Below, in pieces: positions 9,253-56,678 of a DNA stretch of 56,840 nucleotides; position 1 is the stretch's first letter, and each line of letters begins with the position of its first letter. Below the pieces are notes generated by a model, which searched no databases, was not told the origin of the DNA, and saw only the letters and a list, made by a program, of their open reading frames with translations. A program made the translations under genes and the position numbers. Origin of the DNA: an uncultured Lachnospiraceae bacterium (GTDB taxonomy: Bacteria > Bacillota > Clostridia > Lachnospirales > Lachnospiraceae); NCBI GenBank assembly GCA_944384025.1, contig CALWRS010000013.1:1-56840 (forward strand), in the 5' to 3' direction.

Positions 9253-9430
9253 TTCAAGACTCGCTCGCGAGTCTTGGCGCGGGATTCGGGTCGGCTTTTG
9301 CCGACATAATTCCTATCCGAATCCCTGCGCATCCTCGCGGAGCGTATATCAGATGGAGATTGACACCCGCCACTGATACAAATTTGTTACCCACCGCCTA
9401 TAGAGGCGGGGGTCATCTCCCATCTGATAT
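9253..9430 (+). repeat. Interspersed structured repeat, copy A (full length, modules 1-3)
   Basis: Fills the gap between the WYL gene and the transglutaminase lipoprotein gene. Module 1 (9255-9276) is a 10-bp stem, CAAGACTCGC / GCGAGTCTTG, around TC. Module 2 (9277-9330) has an outer stem GCGC-GGGATTCGG / CCGAATCCC-t-GCGC and an inner hairpin GTCGGC-TTTT-GCCGAC. Module 3 has arms ATATCAGATGG (9346-9356) and CCATCTGATAT (9420-9430), extended inward by CCCGCC/GGCGGG pairing. Its last base is the first base of the lipoprotein stop codon (read on plus). Other copies are at 18371, 24965, 30334 and, module 1 only, 12078. Confidence 0.85.
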
Positions 9431-10548
9431 TATTGCATTGCGACAGAAACTTCCCACGTTGCGTCATTTAGCAAACTGTAGCAAATAATCACTTCTCTTT
9501 CTCTGTCCACGTGAAAGTAGTCGCATTCGCGAAACAGCGCGAACCGCGTGTCGCTTATATCAAATTCCTTGCTGTAAAATTCGTTCGTTGAACCAATAAG
9601 AAAATATTCCGGGTCATAATCCCCAAGGACTTCTCTGTCCGCTGTCGTCATGCCAAAGTAGCGCAGTCCTTCGCCCAGCGTGCCCCCGTTTTCATAAGTG
9701 GGGTCAATGTAGTAATCCTTCCCATCCAACGTCGCAACGCACCATTCGTGCGAAACCGATAAATCGTACGTATGTCCGGAGCAGAAGTTTGCACGAATGC
9801 CTACTTGCTGCAGCAGGTGCATATAGGCTCCCGCAAAGCTTTGGCAAATGCCCGTCTGGTTGACGAGCGCATTATACGGACTTACGTCATGATCCTGCGG
9901 TCTTCCATCCAGCGCTTCATAATCATAAGTCATGCGTCTTGAAAGCTCCCGATAAAGCTCTATCGCGCGAATAATCTCGTTGTCGCCCTCTTTCAGACAC
10001 GGTTCAATGTAGCCAGCAACCACTTCCTCAAACTTTGCGATTGCTTCCTCGTGCTCCTCTTTGGAATCCGACTTGTAAAACCAGTAAAATTGCTGATTTT
10101 CTGCATCATAACAGTGGTCATAATCCACATAAGCATCGGCAGAAAACATAAGGAATGAGGCTCTTAGCGTATCGATAAGCCAATACATCTGTTCCTCCCC
10201 CGGACAGTCGATGGACGTTTCGTAATTCAGATACGCGGTGACAAAATCATGATACAGCTCCGAAAATTCTTCCCCGTAAGACGCTTCGTAATCCCAAGCC
10301 ACCACGTAAGGATCGTACACGAATTCATACGGCTTTTCCTCCGGCGTGGGCGTGGGCGTAGGCGTAGACGTAGCTGTTGGCGTGGGCGTAGACGTGACCG
10401 TCGGCGTAGGTGTAGATGTAGTTGTTGGCGCAATTATCGGCGTTGCGCCCTGTGAGCCCGGTGTGTCTTTGCCGCTCTTTCCGCAGCCAAACAAAACTAC
10501 GGATACCAAGAGGAGTACGAAAGCGACCCTGCAAAACTGATTTTTCAT
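9430..10548 (-). CDS. Transglutaminase-like lipoprotein
   Basis: A 372-residue lipoprotein. Signal sequence with lipobox VVLFGC (Cys near residue 22), then a linker of Thr-Pro repeats (TPTPTVTSTPTPTATSTP) that would span the wall, then a transglutaminase-like domain. The triad is readable: Cys in NQTGICQSFAGAYMHLL, His in SVSHEWCVATL, Asp in DYYIDPTYENG. Such domains act as cysteine proteases, transglutaminases or wall-modifying enzymes; the substrate is unknown. GGAGG precedes the ATG. Its stop codon touches repeat copy A. The DNA of the Thr-Pro linker is a degenerate 6-base tandem repeat and could change length by slippage. Confidence 0.88.
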   Translation of the reverse strand: MKNQFCRVAFVLLLVSVVLFGCGKSGKDTPGSQGATPIIAPTTTSTPTPTVTSTPTPTATSTPTPTPTPEEKPYEFVYDPYVVAWDYEASYGEEFSELYHDFVTAYLNYETSIDCPGEEQMYWLIDTLRASFLMFSADAYVDYDHCYDAENQQFYWFYKSDSKEEHEEAIAKFEEVVAGYIEPCLKEGDNEIIRAIELYRELSRRMTYDYEALDGRPQDHDVSPYNALVNQTGICQSFAGAYMHLLQQVGIRANFCSGHTYDLSVSHEWCVATLDGKDYYIDPTYENGGTLGEGLRYFGMTTADREVLGDYDPEYFLIGSTNEFYSKEFDISDTRFALFRECDYFHVDREREVIICYSLLNDATWEVSVAMQ

Positions 10549-10590
10549 TTAAAATTCCTCCCTTTCCAAAGCATATCGTTTTTGGCATAA

Positions 10591-11442
10591 TTAGACTTCT
10601 CCGTGCGAAACCTTGACCAGTTCACCGTACTTCCCCGGATGACGATAAGCATTTCCCATGACCTCGCGCTTTCGGTACGCGCGAAGCATGTCCATATCAA
10701 TCTCCGCCAAATAAATTCCTTCTTCTTCCGGCGCTTCTAGGATGCACATATCCCGCGAACCTGCTTCGTCCCAAAGCCATGCCACGCCGTCAAATACGGT
10801 GGAATGACCGTTGCAGTCGATTTTGCCCGCCGGATAGTTGCAGGTTGCGATTGCAAGCATGTTTTCATAGGCGCGGGCGCGAAGCGCCGATAAGCGATTG
10901 ATTTCCATTGGGCAGGCGTTTGGCGCCAGAATCACCTCTGCCCCCTTTAGCATCAGAAGCCTTGCACTCTCGGGAAACTCTCTGTCAAAGCAAATCATGC
11001 TTCCTATTTTCACAACGTCTCTGCCAATATCCAAATCGCATACATAAAATGCTTCGCCGGATGAAAGCATTTTCTCATCTGAAAAGTCGCAAGTATGCAC
11101 TTTGGAGTAATGAAGTCTGCTTTCGCCATTCCTGTCAAAAAGCATCACGGAATTTAAAGGCCTTGGCGCGTACTTTTCAAGAAACGTAATTCCGATTGCC
11201 ATTTGCAGCTTCGCCGCCAGTTTTCGAAAGCCCTGTACAAAAGCATCGTCCGCGCAAATCTCCAGTTTTCTAAGCAAATCCTTATCCTGCGGAATAGAAT
11301 ACCCGCTGCTCCACATCTCAGGAAAAAGGGCAATATCCGCCCCCATTTCCTTTGCCCTTTCGCATGCGTCTTTCCCTTTTTGAAATTGTTCTTCCAGATT
11401 CCGCCCCGGAAGTAATTGGAGCAATGCTATCTTTAAAATCAT
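10591..11442 (-). CDS. Carbon-nitrogen hydrolase (nitrilase superfamily)
   Basis: A 283-residue enzyme with the Glu-Lys-Cys triad of the nitrilase superfamily: Glu in ALFPEMW (about residue 42), Lys in HYSKVHTCDF (about 114), Cys in GSMICFDREFPE (about 150). The superfamily cleaves non-peptide C-N bonds in nitriles, amides and carbamoyl compounds; the exact substrate cannot be read here, though the FDREFPE context is common in amidase-like branches. Cytosolic. It overlaps the upstream DUF3791/YunG-like gene by four bases (ATGA), so the two are translationally coupled. Confidence 0.9.
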   Translation of the reverse strand: MILKIALLQLLPGRNLEEQFQKGKDACERAKEMGADIALFPEMWSSGYSIPQDKDLLRKLEICADDAFVQGFRKLAAKLQMAIGITFLEKYAPRPLNSVMLFDRNGESRLHYSKVHTCDFSDEKMLSSGEAFYVCDLDIGRDVVKIGSMICFDREFPESARLLMLKGAEVILAPNACPMEINRLSALRARAYENMLAIATCNYPAGKIDCNGHSTVFDGVAWLWDEAGSRDMCILEAPEEEGIYLAEIDMDMLRAYRKREVMGNAYRHPGKYGELVKVSHGEV

Positions 11443-12041
11443 CGCAACTTCTTCCTTAACTCCTCCCGCAAATACGCGTACCTTTGCTTTTTTTCTTCCT
11501 TGGCAAAGTGTACTTCGCGAAGCTGCCGGGGATTTTCCGTATAATCTAATTTCTCATCTCCGAACTGCTCGCTCGTCAAATCAAATTTGCAGTCTCCCAC
11601 AACGTTATAGCAATGATAATTGCCGCCCTCCCGCAGAATTCCGTAAACTTCTCCGCCGAAAATGTCCTGCGCCAGAAAAGCGGTAACGGAGCACTGACCA
11701 AGCGTCCGGTTTTCCTCGCTCCAATTTTGTCGCAGTCTTGGCGCGCACGTGTACTCGCACCAAATTTCCGAAAGAAGGTCATAGAGCATCCTCGGGTCCT
11801 TGATTTTCCCGTAAAGCCTTCTTTCTTCATCATCCATTTGCTCTACGCAAGGCGCTATGTCAGCTCCCTGCCAACCGTAAAATTTGTATTCCATTCCCAT
11901 GCCATGCAAATCGTCATAATCCTCTTGAAGCATTTCAATCACGTTTTCCCGTTTGAAGATTTCATAAACTTCATCGCTTGGCTTGTTAACATGCTCGGCA
12001 TAATATTTCGCACAAAATGTTATAAACGACAGTCTGCTCAT
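11439..12041 (-). CDS. DUF3791 / YunG-like two-domain protein
   Basis: A 200-residue protein. The N-terminal 70 residues (SFITFCAKYYAEHVNKPSDEV onward, with YDDLHGMG) resemble DUF3791, a small domain found in many Firmicutes and often beside toxin-like proteins. The C-terminal part, TLGQCSVTAFLAQDIFGGEVY followed by HCYNVVGDCKFDLTSEQFG, matches the YunG-type fold with Cys, His and Asp in a papain-like order. EYKFYGWQGADIAPCVEQMD joins them. Start supported by GGAGG. It heads a two-gene unit with the nitrilase-like hydrolase. A decayed copy of its middle lies at 13372-13452. Function unknown. Confidence 0.7.
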   Translation of the reverse strand: MSRLSFITFCAKYYAEHVNKPSDEVYEIFKRENVIEMLQEDYDDLHGMGMEYKFYGWQGADIAPCVEQMDDEERRLYGKIKDPRMLYDLLSEIWCEYTCAPRLRQNWSEENRTLGQCSVTAFLAQDIFGGEVYGILREGGNYHCYNVVGDCKFDLTSEQFGDEKLDYTENPRQLREVHFAKEEKKQRYAYLREELRKKLR

Positions 12042-12077
12042 GCTGCACCTCCACTTCTATTCCGTTCATCATACTTT

Positions 12078-12099
12078 CAAGACTCGCTCGCGAGTCTTG
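12078..12099 (+). repeat. Interspersed repeat, copy E (module 1 only)
   Basis: A lone copy of the 22-base module 1 palindrome (CAAGACTCGC, TC, GCGAGTCTTG) between the DUF3791/YunG-like gene and the DUF2262 gene. Sequence identical to module 1 of copies A and C. Modules 2 and 3 are absent. Confidence 0.8.
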
Positions 12100-12147
12100 A
12101 ACAAGTCAATTTCTTTTATACCAAATCCTGTGGAACACGCTGGGACT

Positions 12148-13308
12148 TCATCCCTGTATTTTTGCCTCCTCGATTTCTCCGCTTGCATTAATTTCCACCG
12201 TTATCACATGGTCAGTAAACATCCCGTCACTTTCAAACATAAGGCTCATACTTCCTTCCGGGTAAATTGTAATCAGCGGGATGCCGATTCTCCGGACGAA
12301 TTCTTCTTTTGTAACCGCATCTTCCTCTTCTGCAAGCCAGTCATCATTAGCAAACTCAAGAAGTTCGCATGCAACAAATTCCCTTACCCTGTTGTCAAAC
12401 GCCGGAAGATCCGTAAATATCTCATCCAGCCTCTGCAACTGCGTCTTTACTGAAATATCTCCCTCCAAGACTTCCAGCCATACTTCACACTTTTCTCCCA
12501 GATAATCCTGACTTCCCTCGAATCTATTGTATCGTCTGTCTAAGATAAATTCCGCTTCCCCGTGCATAAACGTAACCGGCCTTATGTATTCTTCCTTTAC
12601 CTGTTCCAGTTTTTCATTTTTAACCTTTTTTACAACATCGACAAGCATGTAGGAATTTGCATTTGTTTTGCTCTTTCTGGCTCTGATATGGTATATCCCC
12701 AAGTCGTTAAAGTTATATTTAATGCTAGAACAGGAGTCTTTTTCTATCCATCGAAGAGAGGCCGGGCTTCCGTCGATCTCCTGTGTCCGCAAATCGACGG
12801 AAGCTATGACCGTTGTCCCGGGCGTTCTGTGCCCGGCACTGCACACATATCCGATTATCCTGTTTTTTATCAGCACAGCCAAATCGAAAATCTCATCGCC
12901 ATATTCCAACCCAAAGAGGTATACCGGGTCGAAACTTTTCTCCTTCACGTCATGCTCCAGCACGTCCTCTACGTAATATTTGACAAATTTGTCAGAGGGT
13001 TTATTGATGTATTCTCTCGCCAGAATGCGGTAAACCTTTCCCTCTTTCAATTTATAACCGTATTTAAATCCAAAAGGTCCGGTCTTTTTTGGCGCCAGCC
13101 ATTCCAGCCAGCAAAAGCCCTTTGTAGCAAGCAGTTCTCCCGTTGCAGCATCTAACGCCATATCAAAACGGGCCCTCGCCTTGTAGTAGTCCCCCAGAGT
13201 GCCAAATCCTCCTGATTTACCCTTTTTATAGCACCAGCTTATCCTGACAAGCAGCTCCCTTTTATCTTCCCGGAAGCCCTCCTTATATTCCTCGATACCT
13301 TCCGCCAT
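12148..13308 (-). CDS. DUF2262-containing protein
   Basis: A 386-residue cytosolic protein. The C-terminal 130 residues match DUF2262: VREFVACELLEFANDDWL, then VTKEEFVRRIGIPLITIYPEG and MFTDHVITVEINASG. The N-terminal 230 residues form a beta-rich domain (FGTLGDYYKARARFDMAL, KYGYKLKEGKVYRILARE) that I recognise only as a common N-terminal companion of DUF2262 proteins. GGAGAAG precedes the ATG. Function unknown; such proteins are often found near immunity-type and DUF-rich clusters. A decayed DUF3791-like fragment lies just upstream. Confidence 0.7.
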   Translation of the reverse strand: MAEGIEEYKEGFREDKRELLVRISWCYKKGKSGGFGTLGDYYKARARFDMALDAATGELLATKGFCWLEWLAPKKTGPFGFKYGYKLKEGKVYRILAREYINKPSDKFVKYYVEDVLEHDVKEKSFDPVYLFGLEYGDEIFDLAVLIKNRIIGYVCSAGHRTPGTTVIASVDLRTQEIDGSPASLRWIEKDSCSSIKYNFNDLGIYHIRARKSKTNANSYMLVDVVKKVKNEKLEQVKEEYIRPVTFMHGEAEFILDRRYNRFEGSQDYLGEKCEVWLEVLEGDISVKTQLQRLDEIFTDLPAFDNRVREFVACELLEFANDDWLAEEEDAVTKEEFVRRIGIPLITIYPEGSMSLMFESDGMFTDHVITVEINASGEIEEAKIQG

Positions 13309-13371
13309 AATCTTCTCCTTCCCGTAGTTTCCATCCCTCGCGTGTGTTTATCTCACCTCTGCTTTTTGCAT

Positions 13372-13452
13372 CTAAAGTCTTCTTTCCGCAGCGTCCATCT
13401 GCTCTATACAGGGCGCTGCGTTGGCACCCTGCCAGCCGAAAAACTTGTATTC
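13372..13452 (-). pseudogene. Decayed fragment of a DUF3791/YunG-like gene
   Basis: On the minus strand this stretch reads EYKFFGWQGANAAPCIEQMD and then AAERRL before a TAG. It is closely similar to EYKFYGWQGADIAPCVEQMD followed by DEERRL in the intact gene at 11439-12041. No start, ribosome site or flanking domain remains. It sits in a 341-base gap (13309-13649) that otherwise shows nothing I can identify. It points to a past tandem duplication of the DUF3791 locus that was later lost or replaced by the DUF2262 gene. Confidence 0.75.
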
Positions 13453-13649
13453 CTAAGAACCTCCACAAGGATTGCCGCATTTTTTGTCCCTTGCAAACAA
13501 TTATAACATAGAGTACGGCGGGGGCGGTAGAAGAAATTTCAGAAAAATCAGAGAGGTTGCATTTTCCTCTCGAGTATGGTTCAATGTACAAAGTGCACAG
13601 CGCTTGGCTCTTCTTGGGCTGCGCGTAAGATACGAAGAGGTACACGTTT

Positions 13650-14426
13650 ATGAAAGATCAGCTGCTGCCCTATTTAACGACGCCCGAGCGAAACGCCGCT
13701 TTTTTGCAGGTCTCAAACCAAACTCTTGACGAACAAACCGGCGCAAACGGCATCGGAACGCTTGCGGAAAAAAGCATCCACGCGGTTTTAAAGCGCTTTT
13801 ACGCGGGCAGCCCTGCTTTCGAGGAAGTCCGCTGCCACGGCTACGTCGCAGACGTTCGCACGAAGGAAGGCATTACCGAAATTCAAACGCGTGCGTTTTA
13901 CAGCATGAAGAAAAAGCTGCACGCATTTTTGACCGAGTGTCCGGTCACCATTGTCTATCCGGTCACACACCGCAAATGGCTCTCCTGGATTACGCCCGAA
14001 ACCGGCGCAGTCAGCAAGCCGCGCCGAACCAACCGCACAGGCTACGGCTTCTCGATTTTTCCGGAACTCTACAGCATTAAGGACTTTCTGCGGCACCCCA
14101 ACCTCTCGTTTCGGCTGGCGCTGCTTGACGTGGAAGAATATAAGATGCTTGACGGCTACGGGCCAAACCGCAAAATCCGCGCCACACGAAACGACGGGCT
14201 GCCGCAGGCGCTAATTGCCGAAGTCCCCTTAAAAAGCGCCGAAAGCTTCTCCTACTTTCTCCCGGCCTCTTTGCCGGAGCGCTTTTCCACTGCCGAATTA
14301 GCCGCCTGCGCCAAAATTCCTCCAGAGCTTGCCAGTGTTGCCTTAAACGTCCTGCTGCACATGGAAACCGTACAGCGGGTCGGGAAAATCGGACATTCTT
14401 ATTTATACGAGCGCTCGTTAAAATAG
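13650..14426 (+). CDS. Hypothetical protein, PD-(D/E)XK-like N-terminal half and winged-helix-like C-terminus
   Basis: A 258-residue protein that I cannot name. Residues about 30-90 carry GTLAEKSIHAVLKRFY, then CHGYVADVRTKEGITEIQTR. The order Glu/Lys helix, Asp-Val-Arg, then Glu-Ile-Gln-Thr looks like the core of a restriction-endonuclease-like fold. A middle region has PVTIVYPVTHRKWLSWITPETG. The last 70 residues (STAELAACAKIPPELASVALNVL, HMETVQRVGKIGHSYLYE) look like a winged helix. GAAGAGG lies about nine bases before the ATG. It is the only plus-strand gene in a minus-strand stretch, with a bidirectional terminator behind it. The nuclease idea is inference from motif order. Confidence 0.65.
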   Translation: MKDQLLPYLTTPERNAAFLQVSNQTLDEQTGANGIGTLAEKSIHAVLKRFYAGSPAFEEVRCHGYVADVRTKEGITEIQTRAFYSMKKKLHAFLTECPVTIVYPVTHRKWLSWITPETGAVSKPRRTNRTGYGFSIFPELYSIKDFLRHPNLSFRLALLDVEEYKMLDGYGPNRKIRATRNDGLPQALIAEVPLKSAESFSYFLPASLPERFSTAELAACAKIPPELASVALNVLLHMETVQRVGKIGHSYLYERSLK

Positions 14427-14484
14427 GGGCGCTTGTGTAAATATGGATCCGCGGAGTACTTCGCACGGCAAACCCGAAGGTGAG

Positions 14485-14515
14485 AAAAAAGACTGCGCAC
14501 TTGGCGCAGTCTTTT
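14485..14515. terminator. Bidirectional terminator between convergent genes
   Basis: AAAAGACTGCGC pairs with GCGCAGTCTTTT around a short loop, with A-run and T-run on the two sides. It lies between the plus-strand nuclease-like gene and the minus-strand PQQ-propeller gene, and should stop both transcripts. Confidence 0.85.
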
Positions 14516-14540
14516 GTTATAATTCAAAACTTACTTTGGT

Positions 14541-16232
14541 CTACTCCAGCGTTATCGCGTAGATCTTTTTTCCTCTCGTTCCAACTACGATCGTATTTTC
14601 AAATACGGCAGGGGACGCTTCCACGTTCTTGCCAAGGTTGATCGTATCTTTTAGTTCTCCGGTGCGCCCGTCAAGCAGATGCATGTTGCCGTCGGAATCG
14701 CACAGGATAATATAGCCGTCGCCTTTTGTATCGTAAACGGCAACCGGAGACGACCAGCTGTAGTATTTCAAATCTACGCTCCAAGCCTCGCCGCCCGTGG
14801 CTTTGTAAATTGCTACGAGTTTTCCGTGCTTTTTCCCGCCGGTTCGCGCAATGTTAAAGAACACAAGGTCGTCGATGTTGTTCTGTCCTAGGCACGCCGT
14901 CGCCTGCACGCCGCCGGAAACACCGTCTACGGTCTTGCATTCGTAGGTACGCTTCCAGATAATCTCGCCGGTAGCGGCATTGATTTTAAAAATCGGGATG
15001 TCCCCGGAATCTTTTTTGTCTTTTGTCCAATGCAGCGATGTGGAGATATAAATATACGCCGTGCCGTCGCTTTGGCTGACCTCAAGCACCGGCGAAGCGT
15101 TGCTGTCGTCAAGAATATCTTGGCTCCAGACAAGCGCCATCGTATTTAAGTCAAGGCACATCAAATCGCCGCCGTTGTTGCACACATACAAGTAATGGTC
15201 GTAAACGACTGCCGAGGATTCCATTCCAAGCCAATACTTATCGTCGCCCGTCCGGCTTGTCGTATAATTCCACTTCACAACGTCCGACGGGTCAATCGAA
15301 ACGCTCGTGCCGTCGTAGGAAACATTCAGCTTCGTCGTATAGAGTATGCCGTTTTCGCCCGGCTGGATAAGCGTATCGGTTGCAACATCAAACAGCGCGG
15401 AGGAATCAAATGCGCAGAAGCTGCCATTGTCCGTCCGCAGGGAAAACTCGTCGTCGTTTCCGTATTCGTAAATCACTTTCCCTTGAATCAAATCGACAAT
15501 AAAGGTTCTAGCGCTTTCTTCGCCCATATCATCACCGGCTCCAACGACATAAAGCGGCGTTCCGTCCGGGTAGAGCGAGCCCGTTCCTTTAATCGGGAAG
15601 CCAAGCTTGATTTTGTCGCGGGTCGCGCTGCCGTCTTCTAGGTCAAGGAAATAAATATTGCCGTCCATGGTGGCGTAAATAACCTCGACAAGATTGGACT
15701 TGTTCTTTTTGGAATCGTACAGATTCATAATCTTGCGGGTTTCCTCCGGCCAGCGGATAATAAGCGGCTGTCCGGTCCAGCCGCTGCCGGTCCACTCGCC
15801 TTTTCCGGTCGTCTTTTTCAGCTCTCCGGTGTTTACGCTCCACGCTTTTTTAAGCGAATACGACTCCATATCGGCAATGCCGTACGCCGCTGTGGAACGA
15901 TAATTGTCGCCGCGAAATGTAATAATCCCTTCCAGTTCCGTATAATGGTTCCCGTCAAAGTGAATTTCGTCCTGGCGGACAAACGCGTCTACTTCCACTT
16001 GATTTACCATTAGCTTTGTCACAAATCCAAAGCGAGACGGCATCGTCTGACTGACCGGCACGCTAATCCCGGTTTCCAAAAGCTTTTGCTCGGTTGTAAG
16101 CTCCATAGTATTTAGCACCGGCGCAACCGCGTCTCCTTCGTTTGGCTCTGATATGACGTCCATACAGCCGGTCAGCAAACCAAGCGCTGCGCAAAGCAGC
16201 ACACACAGCCATCCATATTGTATCTTCTTCAC
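14541..16232 (-). CDS. PQQ-like beta-propeller lipoprotein
   Basis: About 563 residues. Lipobox LLTGC about 20 residues in. The start is taken at the GTG at 16232 (VKKIQYGW) because GGAGG lies five bases before it; an upstream GTG at 16244 is inside the same region and lacks its own site. Repeated blades such as VIYATMDGNIYFLDLEDG, YLYVCNNGGDLMCLDLNTM, YIILCDSDGNMHLLDGRTG and VGTRGKKIYAITL are typical of PQQ_2/PQQ_3 beta-propeller proteins. In this group they usually serve as surface binding scaffolds without the cofactor. Outside face of the membrane. The partner is unknown. Confidence 0.88.
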   Translation of the reverse strand: MKKIQYGWLCVLLCAALGLLTGCMDVISEPNEGDAVAPVLNTMELTTEQKLLETGISVPVSQTMPSRFGFVTKLMVNQVEVDAFVRQDEIHFDGNHYTELEGIITFRGDNYRSTAAYGIADMESYSLKKAWSVNTGELKKTTGKGEWTGSGWTGQPLIIRWPEETRKIMNLYDSKKNKSNLVEVIYATMDGNIYFLDLEDGSATRDKIKLGFPIKGTGSLYPDGTPLYVVGAGDDMGEESARTFIVDLIQGKVIYEYGNDDEFSLRTDNGSFCAFDSSALFDVATDTLIQPGENGILYTTKLNVSYDGTSVSIDPSDVVKWNYTTSRTGDDKYWLGMESSAVVYDHYLYVCNNGGDLMCLDLNTMALVWSQDILDDSNASPVLEVSQSDGTAYIYISTSLHWTKDKKDSGDIPIFKINAATGEIIWKRTYECKTVDGVSGGVQATACLGQNNIDDLVFFNIARTGGKKHGKLVAIYKATGGEAWSVDLKYYSWSSPVAVYDTKGDGYIILCDSDGNMHLLDGRTGELKDTINLGKNVEASPAVFENTIVVGTRGKKIYAITLE

Positions 16233-16291
16233 AACTACCTCCACCGCAAAGCAGCTTCCTTTGCGTATCGTTTCTTACCTATGAGCGGTAA

Positions 16292-16317
16292 GGGGATTCC
16301 GGTCGCCCGGAATCCCC
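16292..16317 (-). terminator. Hairpin behind the transketolase gene
   Basis: An 11-bp perfect stem, GGGGATTCCGG / CCGGAATCCCC, closes a four-base loop (GCGA on the minus strand, a GNRA-type tetraloop). It lies between transketolase and the PQQ lipoprotein gene. No T-run follows on the minus strand, so it may be a processing or stability element rather than a full terminator. Confidence 0.5.
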
Positions 16318-16361
16318 CCGCTGTTATTTCTTATTCTTGCCGTTTGTGCAACGGTTCATTC

Positions 16362-18347: not shown

Positions 18348-18370
18348 GAACATACCCTCCTGTGAATTCA

Positions 18371-18550
18371 TTCAAGACCCGCTCGCGGGTCTTGGCGCGG
18401 GATTCGGGTCAGCTTTAGCTGACATTTTCCTTACCGAATCCCTGCGCATCCCCGCGGAGCGTTTATCAGATGGGGGATTGACTCCCGCCACTGATACGAA
18501 TTTGCTATACTCGCCGTCTATAGAGGCGGGAGTCTTCCCACATCTGATCA
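18371..18550 (+). repeat. Interspersed structured repeat, copy B (modules 1-3, compensatory changes)
   Basis: Between transketolase and the first SGNH lipoprotein gene. Module 1 (18373-18394) is CAAGACCCGC / GCGGGTCTTG: relative to copy A a T-A pair has become C-G on both sides. Module 2 (18395-18447) keeps the outer stem and has the inner hairpin GTCAGC-TTTA-GCTGAC, again changed on both sides. Module 3 has ATCAGATG / CATCTGAT arms with inner ACTCCCGCC / GGCGGGAGT pairing, where copy A has ACACCCGCC / GGCGGGGGT. The 282-base gap holds nothing else evident. Confidence 0.85.
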
Positions 18551-18629
18551 AAATATATCTGTTCTCTTACCGAAAATAGTACCATACTACATGTGCAAAG
18601 TCAAACCTTTCCCGCAGTTCCTTTTGTAT

Positions 18630-19868: not shown

Positions 19869-19948
19869 TGAAACCTCCTTTATAGCAGCAAACGTGGAAC
19901 TCTCCCTTTGATTTTATCAGATTGTCCGCAAAAGCTCAATCCTGCTCC

Positions 19949-19977
19949 TTGCAGTTCATCGGCATTTATTGTAGAAT
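19949..19977 (+). promoter_or_regulatory. Promoter of prfC
   Basis: TTGCAG, a 17-base spacer and TAGAAT lie about 40 bases before the prfC start. Four of six bases match consensus at -35 and five of six at -10. Confidence 0.6.
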
Positions 19978-20014
19978 GTAAAGCGCTAAATTGAGTTAGG
20001 GAGATCAACCACTT

Positions 20015-21607: not shown

Positions 21608-21642
21608 TCCGCAAAATCCCTGCAATCTCCTTAACCCGTTTC

Positions 21643-21849
21643 TTATTTTGCGCTGTCTCCCCCGCTTTTTTCTGCCGGGCGGCAGGCAGCGCTTCCCTTA
21701 CAGCAGCACGACGCGCACTTGCTGCCCTCCGGACAGCCAATACACTTCACGCCTCTTTTCCTTGCTCGAATGATATAGCAAAGCGCAAGACCTATTAACG
21801 CGACGACAATTCCGCCAACAAGCAGATTTGCTAAAATCGATGTAAGCAT
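21643..21849 (-). CDS. FeoB-associated Cys-rich membrane protein
   Basis: A 68-residue protein starting MLTSILANLL; the start at 21849 has GAGGG five bases upstream. One membrane helix (VGGIVVALIGLALCYII), then RKRGVKCIGCPEGSKCASCCCKG, with seven Cys in about 20 residues. This is the small FeoB-associated type found at the end of feo operons in Clostridia, thought to help deliver or sense iron near FeoB. It overlaps no gene and follows feoB after about 30 bases. Confidence 0.85.
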   Translation of the reverse strand: MLTSILANLLVGGIVVALIGLALCYIIRARKRGVKCIGCPEGSKCASCCCKGSAACRPAEKSGGDSAK

Positions 21850-21880
21850 ACCATCCCTCTTTTCCGGGCTGCGCCCATTC

Positions 21881-23890: not shown

Positions 23891-23918
23891 TTTCTTTGCT
23901 CCTTTCCATTTCCTTCTA

Positions 23919-23934
23919 GTTAGTTTCAACTAAC
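23919..23934. promoter_or_regulatory. Probable metal-responsive operator before feoB
   Basis: GTTAGTT-TC-AACTAAC, a perfect 7-bp inverted repeat with a two-base centre, lies about 28 bases before the feoB ATG. Related GTTAG/CTAAC boxes lie before feoA. The form suits a dimeric DtxR/MntR-type iron or manganese repressor. The regulator is not in the window. Confidence 0.5.
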
Positions 23935-23977
23935 CCGTTGGCCAAAAAAAACAGCAGGAACTGCCATCCTAAACTTT

Positions 23978-24190
23978 TCAGATCAGGATGGCCGCTGCCA
24001 ACTGATTGTCGATGTTGTATCTGCCGTCCTTGATGGAAACGACGCAGCTGTTTTTCAGGCGGGACACAACCGTAATCGGCTCGCCGCTATAGCATCCAAG
24101 CGAAAACAGAAAAGCATTCCACTCGTCGTCGTCCGTCTCAATCCGCTGAATAATGTACTCTTTGCCTTCAACGGCATCGGTTAAATTCAT
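23978..24190 (-). CDS. feoA: FeoA-type SH3-like protein
   Basis: A 70-residue cytosolic SH3-like protein that works with FeoB. The start at 24190 (MNLTDAVEG) has AAGGGGG eight bases upstream; longer starts run through the operator region. LFSLGCYSGEPITVV is the conserved FeoA turn (usually LGLxxGxxI), followed by CVVSIKDGRYNIDNQLAAAI, which matches the usual RYxLxxELAxxI end. First gene of the feo operon. Confidence 0.92.
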   Translation of the reverse strand: MNLTDAVEGKEYIIQRIETDDDEWNAFLFSLGCYSGEPITVVSRLKNSCVVSIKDGRYNIDNQLAAAILI

Positions 24191-24218
24191 GCAAACCGCC
24201 CCCTTTCCATCCTTGATA

Positions 24219-24262
24219 GTTGGTTCTAACTTCTTAAAGTCAGTTCTAACTGGGGTTAGTTT
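24219..24262. promoter_or_regulatory. Clustered GTTAG/CTAAC boxes before feoA
   Basis: Three related boxes in 45 bases: GTTGGTTCTAAC, AGTTCTAACT (a palindrome) and GGGGTTAGTTT. They share the arms of the perfect palindrome before feoB (23919-23934). Probably operators of an iron-dependent repressor acting on the feo promoter; exact promoter boxes are not clear. Confidence 0.45.
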
Positions 24263-24357
24263 AGCATTCACGCGGCAAATTGTCAATGGGGGAATTTTCC
24301 TTATTTTCGCGGGTACACTATTTTCGCATTCCGGCCTCTGTCAGGTAGCCAGCGTTT

Positions 24358-24858
24358 TCAGCACATCCATTTCAGCGCCGATAAAAATGTCTCCGTCCCG
24401 ATTTTGTTGCGGCTGCGGATCACATCGCAGATGGTGCGCTCCAAATCGTAGCAGGGAACGGGATTCCCGGCGAGGGTTTGCACCATCGTTTTACCCAACT
24501 CGAACAACTCTGGTTTGATGTAGTAAACCTTGCACTCCGCTTTGATGGCAGCAGACGGGATACAGCCGGAGGGAGCGGTTACGGTGTGCTCAAAGGGTAT
24601 CCGGTCAGACATCCCGTAAAGAAACAGCGCCGTCTCGTGGGAAAAAATAAGCTTTCCCGTCCGGCGGCTGATGGATAACAGCTCGTCCTGCATATCTTCC
24701 AAGAGAACATACTGCCCCTTGACAATGCGGTGAATCTTTTCCGCCTTACACAGCTTGTAAAGCATCGCTTTGGAAATGCCGTGCTGCGCCGCTGTTTTCG
24801 TTTCAATGATGCCGCCGTTTTTATTTGCAATTGCGGCCAGTTCCGCCATATAGTTCAT
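24358..24858 (-). pseudogene. AbiEi-type (type IV) antitoxin, C-terminally truncated and without its toxin
   Basis: 166 residues of an AbiEi-family antitoxin: the N-terminal winged helix (AAIANKNGGIIETKTAAQHGISKAMLYKL), VKGQYVLLED, SHETALFLYGMSDRIPF, and YDLERTICDVIRSRNKI. Family members normally continue for about 30-40 more residues past the LKxY region; here the frame ends with LKWMC and a TGA. No AbiEii nucleotidyltransferase toxin gene follows, only a short gap and the feoA leader. It is an orphan remnant, though the N-terminal DNA-binding half could still be made. GAGGTGAG precedes the ATG. Confidence 0.75.
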
Positions 24859-24964
24859 CCGCTCACCTCGCAGTAACGACCTGATAATATTATGTCCAAA
24901 ATCACGATGAAGGTCAACAGCTGCATCGGTAACCTCAAGCTAAAATTGGAGTTGATATTATGCT

Positions 24965-25094
24965 CAAGACTCGCTCGCGAGTCTTGGCGCGGGATTCGGG
25001 CCGGCTTTTGCCGACATAATTCCTATCCGAATCCCTGCGCATCCTCGCGGAGCGTATATCCGATGGGGGATTGACACCCGCCATTGATACAAAT
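24965..25094 (+). repeat. Interspersed structured repeat, copy C (module 3 cut short)
   Basis: Between the AbiEi remnant and the beta-CASP protein. Module 1 (24965-24986) and module 2 (24987-25040) are complete; the inner hairpin has one mismatch (GCCGGC against GCCGAC). Module 3 keeps only its left arm and spacer, up to about 25094. In that arm, ATATCCGATGG differs from copy A by one base, as expected once the partner arm is gone. Confidence 0.85.
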
Positions 25095-25110
25095 CCTAGA
25101 AGCTTCCCTT

Positions 25111-26718
25111 CTACCGGTCCCACTTATTGCTTAGTTCGTTAATCTGGTCGGCAAATTTCGCCAGATCTTTGTTTGCCCCTTCTCGGTTCTTTTCAATTAC
25201 GGAAAGCAGCCGTTTGCCTGCTGCCATCAGGCGGTCAAAGACAGTCGTCGCTCTCGTACTCTTTTTCTTTTCCGAGCGCGCCACGCGCACTCTGCTGCCG
25301 GCCAAAATGCGCTCGCCTGTAAGCAAGTCGTAACAGTCGCCGCTGTAAGGAGCCTCGGCGGGCATGGAGAGCTCGCCCTCAATCAGCGAAGCAAAATCGT
25401 CGCACACCGTATCGTCTCCGTGGTTTACAAAAACCTTCTGTGGTTTTTTCTCGCTCATTGCTCCGAGCCAAGAAAGGAGAATCTTCTGGTCGGCATGGCC
25501 GCTGACGCCGTCCATACGCGCGATTCTTGCGTTTACCTGAATTTCCTCTCCAAACAGCCGGACGCTTTCCGCGCCATTTAAAAGCGCCTGCCCAAGCGTC
25601 CCTTCCGACTGGTAGCCAACAAACAGCACAGTGCTCTCTGCCCGCCAAAGATTGTGCTTTAAGTGGTGACGGATTCGTCCCGCCTCGCACATTCCGCTTG
25701 CGGAAATAATCACTTTAGGCGTAGGGTCTGCGTTAATTTGCTTGGACTCCTGGCTTGTGATGGAGAGCGAAAGTCCGGGGAAGCGAATCGGGTTTATGCC
25801 TTGCTTAAGCAGCGCAAGCGTTTCGTTATCGCAAAAAGAAAGAACGTCCTCCGAGTATATGTTCGTCGCTTCTACCGCCAACGGGCTGTCCACCCAAACC
25901 GGGAATTCTCCGTGACCCTGGATGCGCTTTTGCTCCTTTAGCTCGCGAATAAGAAACAGCATTTCCTGTGTACGGCCAACGGCAAAGCAGGGAATTACTA
26001 CGTTCCCGCCTTTATCAAGCGTTGTTTGAATAACTTCGGCAAGCTGGCTTGCGTAATCGCTGCGCTTGCCATGAAGCCGCGTACCGTACGTAGACTCCAC
26101 AACAACGTAATCCGTTGGCTGCGGCTTTTGCGGGTCGCGAATCAGCGGGCGATCCACATTTCCAAGGTCTCCGGAAAACAGGATGGAGCGCGTCTGTCCT
26201 TCTTCCGTAATCGTAACCTCGTAACTCGCAGAGCCAAGCAAATGCCCCGCGTCCCAAAGGCGCACGCGCACACCGTCAAACAGTGTATACTCCTTCCCGT
26301 AATCCAGCACCTGAAAGAGCTTCAGCGTCGCTACCGCGTCGTTTGTCGTATATGCGGGCGCAACGGGCTTGCCGCCGGAGCGCTGCGCCTTGCGGTTTTT
26401 CCACTCCGCTTCCTGCTCCTGAATGTGCGCCGAATCGCGCAGCATAATGTTGCAAAGATTGTACGTCGCCTGCGTTGCGTATATCGGTCCGGAAAATCCG
26501 GCCGCTACAAGCGCAGGCAGCATTCCAGAATGGTCAATGTGCGCATGCGTCAAAAGGACGCAGGAAATTTCTCCCGGCGCAACGGGAAGCTCTGCATTTT
26601 CGTACAGATTGACTCCCTGCTCCATTCCGTAATCCACCAATATCTTTTCCCCATTCGCCCACAAAAGCGTTTTGGAGCCGGTCACTTCGTGCGCCGCTCC
26701 CAAAAACTGAACCTTCAT
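25111..26718 (-). CDS. Beta-CASP metallo-beta-lactamase-fold ribonuclease-like protein
   Basis: About 535 residues. The start at 26718 (MKVQFLGAAHEVTGS) has GGAGG just upstream. MBL motifs: THAHIDHSG (motif 2, about residue 63), DAGHLLGSAS, FSGDLGN. The beta-CASP region shows VVESTYG, VVIPCFAVGRTQEML, SASGMCEAGRI and SGHADQ. This is the CPSF/Int11-like branch (YSH1-type) rather than RNase J; such enzymes are two-zinc RNases. A basic C-terminal tail (SEKKKSTRATT) may bind RNA. It follows the LCP gene after 16 bases, so the two are probably co-transcribed. Confidence 0.92.
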   Translation of the reverse strand: MKVQFLGAAHEVTGSKTLLWANGEKILVDYGMEQGVNLYENAELPVAPGEISCVLLTHAHIDHSGMLPALVAAGFSGPIYATQATYNLCNIMLRDSAHIQEQEAEWKNRKAQRSGGKPVAPAYTTNDAVATLKLFQVLDYGKEYTLFDGVRVRLWDAGHLLGSASYEVTITEEGQTRSILFSGDLGNVDRPLIRDPQKPQPTDYVVVESTYGTRLHGKRSDYASQLAEVIQTTLDKGGNVVIPCFAVGRTQEMLFLIRELKEQKRIQGHGEFPVWVDSPLAVEATNIYSEDVLSFCDNETLALLKQGINPIRFPGLSLSITSQESKQINADPTPKVIISASGMCEAGRIRHHLKHNLWRAESTVLFVGYQSEGTLGQALLNGAESVRLFGEEIQVNARIARMDGVSGHADQKILLSWLGAMSEKKPQKVFVNHGDDTVCDDFASLIEGELSMPAEAPYSGDCYDLLTGERILAGSRVRVARSEKKKSTRATTVFDRLMAAGKRLLSVIEKNREGANKDLAKFADQINELSNKWDR

Positions 26719-26734
26719 ACCTTCCTCCACATTT

Positions 26735-28822
26735 TTATTCGAAATCCACCGTTCCGTCGGGAATTTTCTCTCCGTTTAGCACCCGCACCATTAAATCCGC
26801 CGCCTCGTAAACCGACGACTGACTTAAGACGCTGACGCAGAGCTTGCTCGCACGGTAAGACGAGCAGTATTCGTAGGAATAATTTCCGGAAGTCGCATAC
26901 GACGTAAAGTGCCACTCCGCGTTGTCGCTAAGCTGCATACTAACGAGTTCGGCAATCTGATTCATAGACATATTCGTCTGGAAATTGTCCTTCACCTCGT
27001 TTAACAGGCTTTGGTAATTCATCAAAATCGAGGTCGTCGTCGCTTTTGCAAAAATGCCTTTAATCAGCTCCAAATGGTGCTTTCCGCGCGTCACGTCTCC
27101 ACCGGTTACTGTCTTACGCTCCCGCGCAAACGCAAGCGCCTGACTGCCGTTCATGTGATTGTAGCCTTTGTTAAAATGGTAGTGGTGGAATCTAGACGTA
27201 AAGTCGTAATGGGAATATACGTCAATTCCGTCCAGCAGATCTACAATCGCTTCCATACTCGTAAAGTTCACGCGAACAAAAAAGTCAATGTTTAGTCCGT
27301 AGAGCTGCTCTAAGGTAGCCATGGAGTAGCTAACTCCGTAATTTCCCGCGTGCGTAAGCTTGTCGCGAAGCGTCGTCGTTTTCCCCGGAATGTCTACGTA
27401 TGCGTCGCGAGGCGTTGTTACCATCGCAATTTCCTTTGTCTGCGGATTTACTGCAACAAGGACGTTTACGTCGCTTCGGCTTTTCGTTGTAATGGAGCCG
27501 TATACGTCGATTCCGCTGACATATACGACAAACGGCTGAAGCGACAGGGAAGTGTTTTCGTCGATGTTGGAATTCGTATGAATATCCGGCGCTTCCTCTT
27601 CTTCTACGACGTATTCCAGCTCAAGCGTGTAGATGATTTTCATCTCCTCGGAAATAACTCTGTCTTCCCCGCGCATTTCAAGCTCCGCGTCCATATCGTC
27701 AATCGTTCCCGTATCCAGCACAAACGCGTCGATTTCGCCGTCGTCGTAGAGCTTTAGCAATGCGGAAACGCTGTCGGTTTCGTAAAAGGACAGCTGGGTG
27801 CCCGCCGCCGCATTCAGCTTCGCAACCACTTCGTTCATTTCTTCTTCGCTGTGCTCGTAATGAAGCCCGATCCGGTAATCCAAAATGTCTTCCAGCCCGT
27901 CCGCCGGCGCTTTTTTATCTACGTAAACGTAATACGCAATCGTATTTACCGTATCTTCCGCCCCTACGACGATTTTCGATGCGTCGCTCTCTAAGCTGCC
28001 TACAATGTTTGACGCAAAGAGAATCGCGCAGCTAAACACAACCGCCGTCAGCTTTCCAACAATCTGAAATTCCCGAAAAAACTGCAGCGAAAGCGATACA
28101 ACAAGCGCTACGACCAAAACAATCGCCACCATCGTAAGCACTTGTTCCAGTGTTTTTGACTCCAGCAGCTCGGAAATCGCTCCAAGCACTTTTGTGGAGC
28201 GGTTCAGCCGGTAAAATTCCAACAGCGTTACAATCGCCTGTACAAGCACTGCGGCGGCGGCAAGCAAAAGATTTAGCCTGCGGTCGCCCCAAACGGCAAG
28301 GGAAAGAAGGACGATCACAAGCAAGTACATCCCTACAATTCTTGCCGGTGAGAGCAGTTCGTTTTTGTACTGAAACGAAACGAGCACCATAAAGATAAGC
28401 TGCGTCAGGGCAATGCCGGTCATCCCTGCCTTCCACGGGTTTTCATCAAGCAAAAGCTGCACGGCGCCAAGAAGCGCGGCAATCATATAAAGCCCGGCAA
28501 AAAACGCAACTTCCGTTCCGGACAAAACGCCTTTCCCGCGAAACAAAAAGATACCAACAAGCCAAACTGCCGCAAGCGAAAGCTCCGGCAAAAGCGTCGC
28601 CCAAACAGTGCAAAGAAGCTTTTTTGAGCGCAAAACGCTTGTCACAAGAAGCGTCAAAAGCAAAATGGCGAATGCGCCGAACTGAAACAATAAAATCGGC
28701 AGCAGTACGCCTTTAATGCTTGCGTCCTTTGTGATAACCGCGTCAAAGCTAAAGATCAGGCAGCTCATTTGCAGCAGCAGTAAAAGCGCCGCAAACGCCG
28801 CTCTTTTTTTCGTTAATTCCAT
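26735..28822 (-). CDS. LCP-family protein (LytR-CpsA-Psr) with a polytopic N-terminus
   Basis: About 695 residues. Eight or nine hydrophobic segments fill the first 290 residues, an external domain of about 110 residues follows, and the LCP domain covers the last 280: MVTTPRDAYVDIPGK, DFFVRVNFTSMEAIVDLLDGIDV, GYNHMNGSQALAFARERKTVTGGDVTRGKHHLELI. LCP enzymes transfer undecaprenyl-linked glycopolymers to peptidoglycan. The long polytopic N-terminus is unusual against the common single anchor helix. The start at 28822 (MELTKK) is taken, but its GGAG is 11 bases away; a GTG at 28843 is the alternative. Confidence 0.85.
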   Translation of the reverse strand: MELTKKRAAFAALLLLLQMSCLIFSFDAVITKDASIKGVLLPILLFQFGAFAILLLTLLVTSVLRSKKLLCTVWATLLPELSLAAVWLVGIFLFRGKGVLSGTEVAFFAGLYMIAALLGAVQLLLDENPWKAGMTGIALTQLIFMVLVSFQYKNELLSPARIVGMYLLVIVLLSLAVWGDRRLNLLLAAAAVLVQAIVTLLEFYRLNRSTKVLGAISELLESKTLEQVLTMVAIVLVVALVVSLSLQFFREFQIVGKLTAVVFSCAILFASNIVGSLESDASKIVVGAEDTVNTIAYYVYVDKKAPADGLEDILDYRIGLHYEHSEEEMNEVVAKLNAAAGTQLSFYETDSVSALLKLYDDGEIDAFVLDTGTIDDMDAELEMRGEDRVISEEMKIIYTLELEYVVEEEEAPDIHTNSNIDENTSLSLQPFVVYVSGIDVYGSITTKSRSDVNVLVAVNPQTKEIAMVTTPRDAYVDIPGKTTTLRDKLTHAGNYGVSYSMATLEQLYGLNIDFFVRVNFTSMEAIVDLLDGIDVYSHYDFTSRFHHYHFNKGYNHMNGSQALAFARERKTVTGGDVTRGKHHLELIKGIFAKATTTSILMNYQSLLNEVKDNFQTNMSMNQIAELVSMQLSDNAEWHFTSYATSGNYSYEYCSSYRASKLCVSVLSQSSVYEAADLMVRVLNGEKIPDGTVDFE

Positions 28823-28958
28823 GATGTGATATACTCCTGTCACTTCCTGTTTTCCTCCATTATATTCTGCCTTCGTCCATTATGCAAGCCCGTCCCGATG
28901 CGTCTTTTGCCTCTTGTTTTTTTTAGCGCTTTTTTGTATCATAATTTAGGAACACCGC

Positions 28959-28995
28959 CACCCCGCCGCAGCGCTGGCGGCGGGGTGACAATTTT
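28959..28995 (+). terminator. Terminator-like hairpin in the leader of the second SGNH gene
   Basis: CACCCCGCCGC pairs perfectly with GCGGCGGGGTG (11 bp, loop of 7) and is followed by ACAATTTTTC. It lies 27 bases before the SGNH gene start, with no plus-strand gene upstream, so it falls in that gene's 5' leader and could act as an attenuator. Confidence 0.55.
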
Positions 28996-29021
28996 TCAGC
29001 GCAGATTGGAGAATTCCTAAA

Positions 29022-30329
29022 ATGAAACGCCTATACCTTTTCTTTCTTGCTGCCTTGCTTAGCGGTCTTTTCCTTGCCTGTGAGGCAAAGCCCGCAGACG
29101 CTCCGGCCGCAACTCCCTCACCGACCGCCGCGCCTCCTGCTTCCACGGACGATAACACGAAGAAGTATTCCGACGTCGTCTCCGTTCCCGAAGTGCTGAC
29201 GACTTATAAAATCGATCCTGTAGAACCGCTTGGCGTTTCCGTTACCGCAGAAATGCTCGCGGCGTCCGTAATTAACCAAGGAAACATCACGCGCATTGCA
29301 GACGTTTTAGTGCGCGCCGCAAACGGAGAAGAAATTACCATCGCCTATATTGGCGGCTCCATTACAAACGGATCCTCCGCTTCGCCGCAGCAAACTTCCT
29401 GCTACGCTTACTTGACAACCGAATGGTGGAAAAAATCCTTTCCGGACGCAACGATTAACTACGTAAACGCGGGAATTGGCGCAACGGACTCGTATCTGGG
29501 CGTTCACCGGGTGGAAAAAGACGTTTTGCAAAGCAATCCGGACCTTGTGATCGTAGAATTCAGCGTCAACGACAGCCGCGCGCATAACAAAGAAACTTAC
29601 GAATCTCTTTTGCGCCGCATTCTAAGCTACGAAACCAACCCCGCGGTTGTTGCCCTGTTTTTGACGCAGGAAAACGGCAGCGACTACCAAAGCGAACATC
29701 AGCAAGTCGCTTTTAAGCTTCAGGTGCCTATGATTAGCTACCGAAACGCAATTTTGCCGTCCTTAAACGACGGAAGCCTTGCTTGGTCGAGCGTGGGCGC
29801 GCCGGACGGAACGCACCCAAATAACGGCGGGCACTCGGTTATCGCGTATTTTCTAACGAGCTTTTTTGCCTCCGTACAAGAACAGATTCCGACTATGGCG
29901 TACGAACCGTACGAAATTCCTTCCGAAAAGCTTACGCTTTGCCGTTACACAAACGGAACCATGTACGACAATACGAATCTGACGGCCACTTCGCTTGACG
30001 GCTTTGCGCCTGCAACGATAAGCGCGGCGCAGTTTCCAAACGGCTGGACAACGACAAGCGGCGGAACAGCCGAGTTTGAGATTACCGGAACGAATATCGG
30101 CATTGTCTTTTACGGAACGCTCGACGGCAAAAGCGGCCAGTTCGACGTCTACCTTGACGGCGAGCTGTGCACAACGATTGACGCGAACTTCGTTGGACAA
30201 TGGGGAAGCTACGCGGATTACCGTGAGTTGAAAAAATTCGACGAAGAGGGAACGCATACAATCCGGATTCAGCCCTCCGCAAATACAACCGGAGAGCAGT
30301 TTACAATCCTTGCCTTTACCGTTTCCTAA
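29022..30329 (+). CDS. SGNH/GDSL-hydrolase lipoprotein, paralogue
   Basis: A 435-residue lipoprotein: lipobox LFLAC, an Ala/Pro/Thr-rich linker, then SGNH blocks IAYIGGSITNGSS (Ser), NAGIGATDS (Gly), IVEFSVNDSRAH (Asn) and DGTHPNNGGH (Asp, His). A C-terminal beta-sandwich (TAEFEITGTNIGIVFYG, QFDVYLDGELCTTI) resembles a carbohydrate-binding module. Same architecture as 18630-19868, so the pair probably arose by duplication and acts on surface or external glycans. GGAGA precedes the ATG. Divergent from the LCP gene, with a terminator-like hairpin in its leader and repeat copy D right behind its stop. Confidence 0.88.
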   Translation: MKRLYLFFLAALLSGLFLACEAKPADAPAATPSPTAAPPASTDDNTKKYSDVVSVPEVLTTYKIDPVEPLGVSVTAEMLAASVINQGNITRIADVLVRAANGEEITIAYIGGSITNGSSASPQQTSCYAYLTTEWWKKSFPDATINYVNAGIGATDSYLGVHRVEKDVLQSNPDLVIVEFSVNDSRAHNKETYESLLRRILSYETNPAVVALFLTQENGSDYQSEHQQVAFKLQVPMISYRNAILPSLNDGSLAWSSVGAPDGTHPNNGGHSVIAYFLTSFFASVQEQIPTMAYEPYEIPSEKLTLCRYTNGTMYDNTNLTATSLDGFAPATISAAQFPNGWTTTSGGTAEFEITGTNIGIVFYGTLDGKSGQFDVYLDGELCTTIDANFVGQWGSYADYRELKKFDEEGTHTIRIQPSANTTGEQFTILAFTVS

Positions 30330-30333
30330 ATTC

Positions 30334-30411
30334 TTCAAGACCCGCAAGCGGGTCTTGGCGCGGGATTCGGGTCAGCTTTAGCTGACACTTTCCTTACCGA
30401 ATCCCTGCGCA
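30334..30411 (+). repeat. Interspersed structured repeat, copy D (modules 1 and 2)
   Basis: Starts about five bases after the stop of the SGNH paralogue. Module 1 (30336-30357) is CAAGACCCGC-AA-GCGGGTCTTG, with the same C-G pair as copy B but an AA loop. Module 2 (30358-30410) has the inner hairpin GTCAGC-TTTA-GCTGAC. Module 3 is missing. The rest of the 372-base gap to tuf holds the tRNA and two terminators. Confidence 0.85.
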
Positions 30412-56451: not shown

Positions 56452-56678
56452 GCCTAATCCTGATGGGCAGTGACGCATTACCCAATACGCCTGCCCATCC
56501 CCTTCGGGGGAACCTGCTATAAAGGTGCATCACCTGATCAATGATGGCTCACGCCTTATAGTGGACAAGTAAATATCAGCACAGCGATCTGATGAGCAAG
56601 AGAGCTGCAATCGGAATGGAGATCACTCCATTTGGACTGCGGTTAGGTTACTATTGCCATTTTTCGCTGTTCAGAGAG

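Follow-up and report, generated by a model that had tools for sequence, protein, structure and literature searches.

What kind of element is the modular repeat that recurs along one contig of an uncultured Lachnospiraceae bacterium? The window, by which we mean the whole stretch of 56,840 nucleotides that was analysed (contig CALWRS010000013.1 of assembly GCA_944384025.1), carries five copies of it, A to E. A first-pass annotation had suggested either a structured RNA or a repeat resembling a miniature inverted-repeat transposable element (MITE) or a repetitive extragenic palindrome (REP). A to E are copies of a 178-180 bp interspersed non-coding element. We propose, with a probability of about 0.7, that it is a non-autonomous mobile element whose moving form is folded single-stranded DNA, as in the IS200/IS605 (Y1/HUH) insertion sequences (IS). 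Comparison of copies and sites showed that it inserts without target duplication at a single target pentamer, that this pentamer matches a guide within the element, that its orientation is biased, and that its stems covary.

On the strand used in the first-pass annotation, the parts follow in the order TTC, hairpin hp1 (module 1), module 2, linker GCATCC...CGGAG, five-base guide and module 3. Module 2 is a long hairpin with a one-sided bulge, and the outer stem of module 3 ends in CAG/CTG or CTCAG/CTGAG. Short forms of about 125-129 nt and long forms of about 173-191 nt occur, sometimes both in one genome; the long form has an additional, nested hairpin within module 3. All five copies lie where they had been annotated, every one on the + strand:

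9253-9430, + strand: copy A, whole repeat.
9253-9426, + strand: copy A, mobile part (TTCAAG...CATCTG), subfamily A, full length; right limit taken from the empty sites of relatives.
9255-9276, + strand: copy A module 1, the 9-bp hairpin hp1, which on the opposite strand is the element's 3' end (covariation helix 1).
9277-9330, + strand: copy A module 2, the long hairpin with a one-sided bulge (covariation helices 2 and 3).
9331-9344, + strand: copy A conserved linker ATCCTCGCGGAGCG, by eye a possible mini-hairpin with a GGA loop.
9345-9349, + strand: copy A guide TATAT; most A-type copies have a target pentamer complementary to it (pattern over 137 copies).
9350-9426, + strand: copy A module 3, end hairpin with a nested hairpin of IS200/IS605 type (covariation and module 3 pairing counts).
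9427-9431, + strand: copy A putative target pentamer ATATT, one mismatch to the guide, assigned from empty sites.
12076-12101, + strand: copy E, solo module 1, palindrome TTCAAG...CTTGAA.
18371-18550, + strand: copy B, whole repeat.
18371-18546, + strand: copy B, mobile part, subfamily B, full length; guide TTTAT at 18462-18466.
18547-18551, + strand: copy B target pentamer ATCAA, one mismatch to the guide.
24964-25094, + strand: copy C, subfamily A, stops within module 3.
30334-30411, + strand: copy D, modules 1 and 2, with a GDSL gene on one side and tRNA-Gly on the other.

Insertion site and guide

In four comparisons of filled with empty sites, insertion had occurred without target duplication, and ATAWA or (once) ATGAA adjoined the right end. 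Genome G046 has one IS605-type element in two states, with the repeat at L346 and without it at L348, which are 98% identical over 404 bases spanning the join; the empty site reads CTCG followed directly by ATATAACTACGG, and the filled site reads CTCG, then TTCAAG...CAGCTG, then ATATAACTACGG. The further pairs are L077 against L161 (ATAAA), L215 against L147 and L150 (ATGAA), and the diverged copy L091 against L073 (ATAAA), where the left end is less certain. The rest of the 15 junction-spanning alignments paired a locus with itself or with the same place (part of these were inspected), or one copy with another (L206 against L091). Among 21 other species of the genus, neither a BLAST match to copy A nor a match to its empty site was found.

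Duplication of the target was likewise absent from the wider set: flank matches of at least 4 bases occurred in 5 of 113 copies, compared with about 2.8 in shuffles (113 of the 143 distinct copies had clean ends and at least 20 nt of each flank). In the tandem arrays at L018 and L113, CATCTG of one copy is followed immediately by TTCAAG of the next, which would be expected were the terminal ATAT part of the target. L018 (G000:C1:14432-14846) is a direct tandem of two full copies and one partial copy, and it looks as if later copies had inserted at the target of an earlier one.

We then compared the five bases before the module 3 stem with the five bases after it. Both could be placed in 137 copies and were fully complementary in 110, with one mismatch in 23 and three or more in 4, while shuffling of targets among copies gave a mean of only 49 perfect matches. 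Guides and targets fall into classes, TTTAT with ATAAA (60/71), TATAT with ATATA (41/54) and TTTAA with TTAAA (9/11). Since the four empty sites assign the right pentamer to the target and not to the insert, we read this five-base complementarity, a pattern in the sequence, as a match between the element and its insertion site. Read on the moving strand, insertion lies 3' of a specific pentamer, with three main pentamers each paired with its own guide.

Folding and copies in the source genome

The first-pass annotation had also claimed selection on the folded strand, and covariation backs this. In an alignment of 39 diverse copies (A5), both sides had changed in 38 of 49 pairs; the 250 cells changed on both sides compare with 67.8 in shuffles, of which none in 500 reached 250, and with at most 24 when partners were slid. 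An independent check came from 29 long-form module 3 sequences, aligned separately with MAFFT (A6). There, pairing was kept in 93.1% of cells of the nested hairpin (5/10 pairs changed on both sides), 89.3% for the outer stem (6/13), 83.5% for the long-range pairing (2/7) and 80.7% for the left inner hairpin (5/11). Cells changed on both sides exceeded shuffles for all four pairings, and for the nested and long-range pairings 0/500 shuffles reached the observed value. G.T cells were few (109/6343) and barely commoner than A.C cells (73/6343). G.T pairs so scarce, hardly above A.C, are unlike structured RNAs; their low level would fit folding selected on DNA. A pairing between the hp1 loop and the linker, taken from RNA folds, was rejected, as it fails in the subfamily with hp1 loop ACG..CGT; the linker was therefore treated as a small hairpin of its own.

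Part order was kept, by eye, in L384, L385 and L386 despite quite different stems, which suggests that the architecture of the element may outlive its sequence. Diverged families (L384, L385 and L091:2215-2349) have other stems with the same part order, the linker GCATCC..AGCGGAGCG and a T-rich guide.

A genome-wide search, which had been suggested as a check, found a multi-copy family with two subfamilies. BLAST with copy A gave 45 places in the whole genome (1,918,213 bases, 19 contigs), a list that counts some copies as two places, rests on scores for the best 40 of 73 candidates and lacks D and E. The palindromic pattern of module 1 with at most 2 mismatches occurred at 49 places per strand, 42 of them mismatch-free, and the pattern read backwards at none. 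Twenty of the 49 were outside the BLAST list: D and E in the window, 15 that were retrieved, and 3 remaining places with two mismatches. Within the window, the hairpin with up to 3 mismatches gave 8 matches (both strands, five places) against a mean of 0.00 in 100 shuffles.

Twenty full-length copies aligned straightforwardly, 13 of A type (mean identity 0.947) and 7 of B type (0.966), with 0.841 between types. The paired stem changes are as first described, and in this alignment they are fixed differences between the two subfamilies. Mosaics occur: L012 combines a body of A type with a 3' end of B type, and both types are mixed in L031 and L043. The idea that copies end at module boundaries did not survive the genome-wide view: several truncations fall inside module 2 or 3 (L026, L040, L041, L042 and C), and several other copies (L030, L043, L101, L108) have lost internal sequence, in some cases between short direct repeats. 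Three solo hp1 copies (window 12076-12101, L099 and L102) are completed to the palindrome TTCAAG...CTTGAA at the point where full copies continue CTTGGCGC; they are perhaps products of snap-back repair.

Orientation, mechanism and the IS200/IS605 comparison

Orientation was examined relative to replication in two complete genomes with dnaA at the record start. The element opposed the leading strand in 24/27 copies of G211 and 17/27 of G339, or 41/54 pooled (p = 0.0002). These counts cover 27 of 43 matches in G211 and 27 of 38 in G339 (score about 55 bits and up, with a retrieved locus) and exclude reverse-strand matches at the same place. In G339, the AATGCC subfamily opposed the leading strand in 7/7 copies. 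Consistent with this, GC skew of the flanks, read on the element strand, was clearly negative in 110 of 147 copies lying in loci of at least 3000 bases, clearly positive in 26 and near zero in 11, and in the window, which has its five copies all on +, every 5-kb step shows negative skew. Given this bias, the lagging-strand template mostly holds the complement of the strand as read, which runs 5'-TWTAT, then module 3, module 2, hp1 and CTTGAA-3'.

We infer from these patterns a single-strand intermediate, the class of the enzyme and the role of module 2. The moving strand would be this complement, 5'-[module 3][module 2][hp1]...CTTGAA-3', and would enter directly 3' of TTTAT, TATAT or TTTAA, the pentamer staying unduplicated. 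The 5-nt guide at the foot of module 3 would pair with the target, so that guide and target would together form the base of the terminal hairpin. The likely enzyme would be a Y1-type transposase supplied in trans.

This scheme can be set beside known elements. The portions of PMC6006769 and PMC7290912 drawn on here describe members of IS200/IS605 as making no target duplication, inserting 3' of a specific tetra- or pentanucleotide, carrying subterminal hairpins and favouring the lagging-strand template; the site is found through a guide 5' of the hairpin foot (PMC6006769), and the portion of PMC7290912 concerned gives no strand preference in that study's own host. With IS608, ISDra2 and the non-autonomous PATEs, our element shares the lack of duplication, the fixed short 3' target, terminal hairpins, guide-target pairing and lagging-strand preference, and its long form nests a hairpin common to the ends of TnpA/TnpB elements. 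It differs in having no gene, in its conserved central module 2 and GCATCC...CGGAG linker, and in comprising several guide/target classes within one family.

The nested hairpin of the long-form module 3 is CTCCCACCTCTATAGGTGG, on the moving strand GACTCCCACCTCTATAGGTGGTGAG, and it or a close variant occurs at TnpA/TnpB element ends. It lies upstream of tnpA in an IS605-type element of G046, in three (L353, L356 and L364) of a further 20 TnpA loci, and at each of the two ends of L375. Among nine viral stretches with the hairpin, TnpB adjoins it in L374, L375 and L379, TnpA and TnpB in L378, and L381 is a copy of the element itself; L373 also has the target TTTAT, and its neighbour appears IscB-like by reading, with no Pfam match. 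In G046, an IS605-type element with the repeat between tnpB and tnpA is present twice (L346 and L347, on C67 and C65), so the repeat was carried along.

IS605-type loci were considered as carriers of the same ends and rejected, as the covariance model gave only two inserted copies in 37 loci; in 29 further loci (the 20 TnpA loci and nine viral stretches) it found only the L381 copy. A search for an autonomous copy or a recurrent neighbour gene also failed: the largest clusters were short frames across the repeat and, by eye, genes of widespread kinds such as those for ABC transporter ATPases (17 loci).

Several observations weigh against our proposal. For the enzyme, neither Y1_Tnp nor the TnpB zinc-ribbon family had a match in the source genome, a draft from which repeated IS copies may be lost. 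Y1_Tnp was present in 74/129 carriers and 144/268 non-carriers (p = 0.52, no association; all 397 genomes of the family sample, unlisted ones by subtraction), and no transposase-like gene recurs beside copies, as judged by eye from clusters not run against Pfam. With these three results together, we can only infer that a Y1-type transposase acts in trans, and the enzyme may also have been lost. At viral stretches L376, L377 and L380, a scan of the neighbours showed no transposon protein. In contrast to IS608, whose guide is 5' of the hairpin, our element has a fully complementary guide on the 3' side, and its hp1 end has been linked to no known IS end. As to the site, the empty counterpart of L215, one of the four, reads ATGAA where the filled copy reads ATAAA, and guides could be parsed in 137 of 162 copies, the procedure passing over decayed copies because it depends on a recognisable stem foot. 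As to folding, alignment A5 was fitted to the model structure and hence favours it, so its absolute covariation figures lean towards the model; in A6 the numbers of pairs changed on both sides were within shuffles for the nested hairpin (62/500) and the long-range pairing (283/500). As to orientation, G339 alone was not significant (p = 0.25), and its tandem-GA subfamily had no bias (10/20). Where neighbouring genes differ in direction, only 13/20 copies follow replication (12/14 without the G339 tandem-GA copies), and gene order gives no full separation of transcription from replication.

Rival readings and spread across genomes

The element works like a non-autonomous member of IS200/IS605. 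We do not file it under either IS200/IS605 or REP, since its guide is placed differently from the former and it lacks the tag of the latter. A further reading, less likely than not, is that it is a single-strand transposition unit of a kind of its own. The whole 125-190 nt element, two end hairpins with a central hairpin and the GCATCC...CGGAG linker, would then be one folded substrate for an enzyme that in many hosts would not be recognisable as a Y1 transposase, and the guide would extend the end hairpin into the target and so program the site.

Less probable is a REP-like repeat, akin to bacterial interspersed mosaic elements (BIMEs) or REPINs, moved by a domesticated REP-associated tyrosine transposase (RAYT, TnpA-REP). 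Such repeats are, like ours, intergenic, hairpin-based, gene-free and present in many copies, and G211 encodes RAYT-like Y1 proteins of 209 and 263 amino acids. However, the RAYT-like loci scanned held no copy (the two matches in 37 loci were both in IS605-type loci), the source genome has no Y1 match, and the modular body is larger (125-190 nt). No GTAG or CGTC tag was seen at the hairpin foot, the ends by eye being TTCAAG and the target ATAWA. Pneumococcal BOX and RUP repeats are also modular, intergenic and structured; compared by description only, they differ in host group, and our element has guide-target pairing and no target duplication.

A structured RNA, serving as a regulator or an mRNA 3'-end element and conserved for the transcript, is rather improbable. 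Strong covariation would suit it, as would the neighbouring genes, which mostly run against the element: both did so in 70/120 cases and both ran along it in 14/120 (genes from a simple open reading frame script), a figure of 0/18 for copies of the source genome, so transcripts would mostly carry one strand. The precise insertion with empty sites is at odds with this, as are the few G.T cells with little strand asymmetry (109 G.T and 73 A.C of 6343) and the lack of a recurring neighbour gene that would suggest regulation. Because the insertion anatomy explains the structure, the flanks are unconserved and G.T is rare, we read the repeat as mobile in preference to an RNA gene, and this alternative of the first-pass annotation loses ground.

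Insertion through an RNA with guide pairing, as in a group II intron-like or retroelement, is very unlikely: the lack of duplication, the target pairing and the lagging-strand bias would fit it too, but the element is only 125-190 nt, its G.T use is low, and no Rfam family matched the element above curated scores, in the window or in ten copy-bearing loci. A classical MITE, descended from a DDE transposon and bearing terminal inverted repeats and a target duplication, is hardly credible, since, short, non-coding, multi-copy and at AT-rich sites though it is, the element shows no duplication beyond chance in 113 copies and none in four empty sites, and its two ends are different hairpins, not mutual inverted repeats. 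Of the earlier MITE- or REP-like label, mobility thus stands, through the empty sites, while the classical MITE with target duplication and the REP with a GTAG-type tag and RAYT do not.

A match to an already described repeat family, which the first-pass annotation had named as contrary to its proposal, did not emerge from Rfam: the scan of the window and the ten loci gave nothing for the element above curated scores, and the loci gave a single sub-threshold rliG match (24.5 bits against 55) over the L094 copy. Near the window end, at 56514-56673, Rfam places a DUF2800 RNA motif (RF02960, 124.7 bits). In literature searches for the repeat in Lachnospiraceae and for non-autonomous IS605-type elements, no listed title or abstract opening described it.

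A covariance model built from 20 full-length copies of the source genome matched 129 of 397 genomes of the same family, Lachnospiraceae, at E <= 0.01 (source genome included), and 36 at E <= 1e-20. In an even draw of the class, 12 of 391 genomes matched, 4 of them in the family; among the other 8 only G735 was strong (E 3.2e-13), and weak partial matches in G563 and G442, outside the family, fall on the nested-hairpin part of the model. The conserved linker pattern occurred in at least 116 stretches of GTDB genomes. Titles among the matches listed refer to bacteria or genera of Lachnospiraceae, to Eubacterium or Eubacteriaceae, and to Clostridia or bacteria without further assignment; they include Catenibacillus scindens, Clostridium fessum, Agathobacter ruminis, Blautia glucerasea, Anaerobutyricum hallii, Faecalicatena contorta and Hominifimenecus microfluidus. 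A deeper model search of four genomes gave 35-44 matches each, weak and reverse-strand matches counted. One genome has longer forms of 231-233 nt (G211:C1:695331-695563 and similar) alongside forms of 178 and 127 nt, and in L241 (4699-5273) three copies in mixed orientation cluster within 600 bases. Plasmid and phage records had no matches to the element; two IMG/VR contigs contain the linker pattern with no model match at E <= 0.001, and the IMG/VR contig L381 carries one copy.

The repeat has matches in about a third of the genomes sampled from a main gut bacterial family, and it may account for some of the recurrent intergenic repeats and contig breaks in Lachnospiraceae genomes. Its many natural guide/target variants lie within one system and raise the question of the mobilising enzyme. 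As guide and target change together, the part played by DNA-DNA pairing in target choice can be tested by comparison and by mutation.

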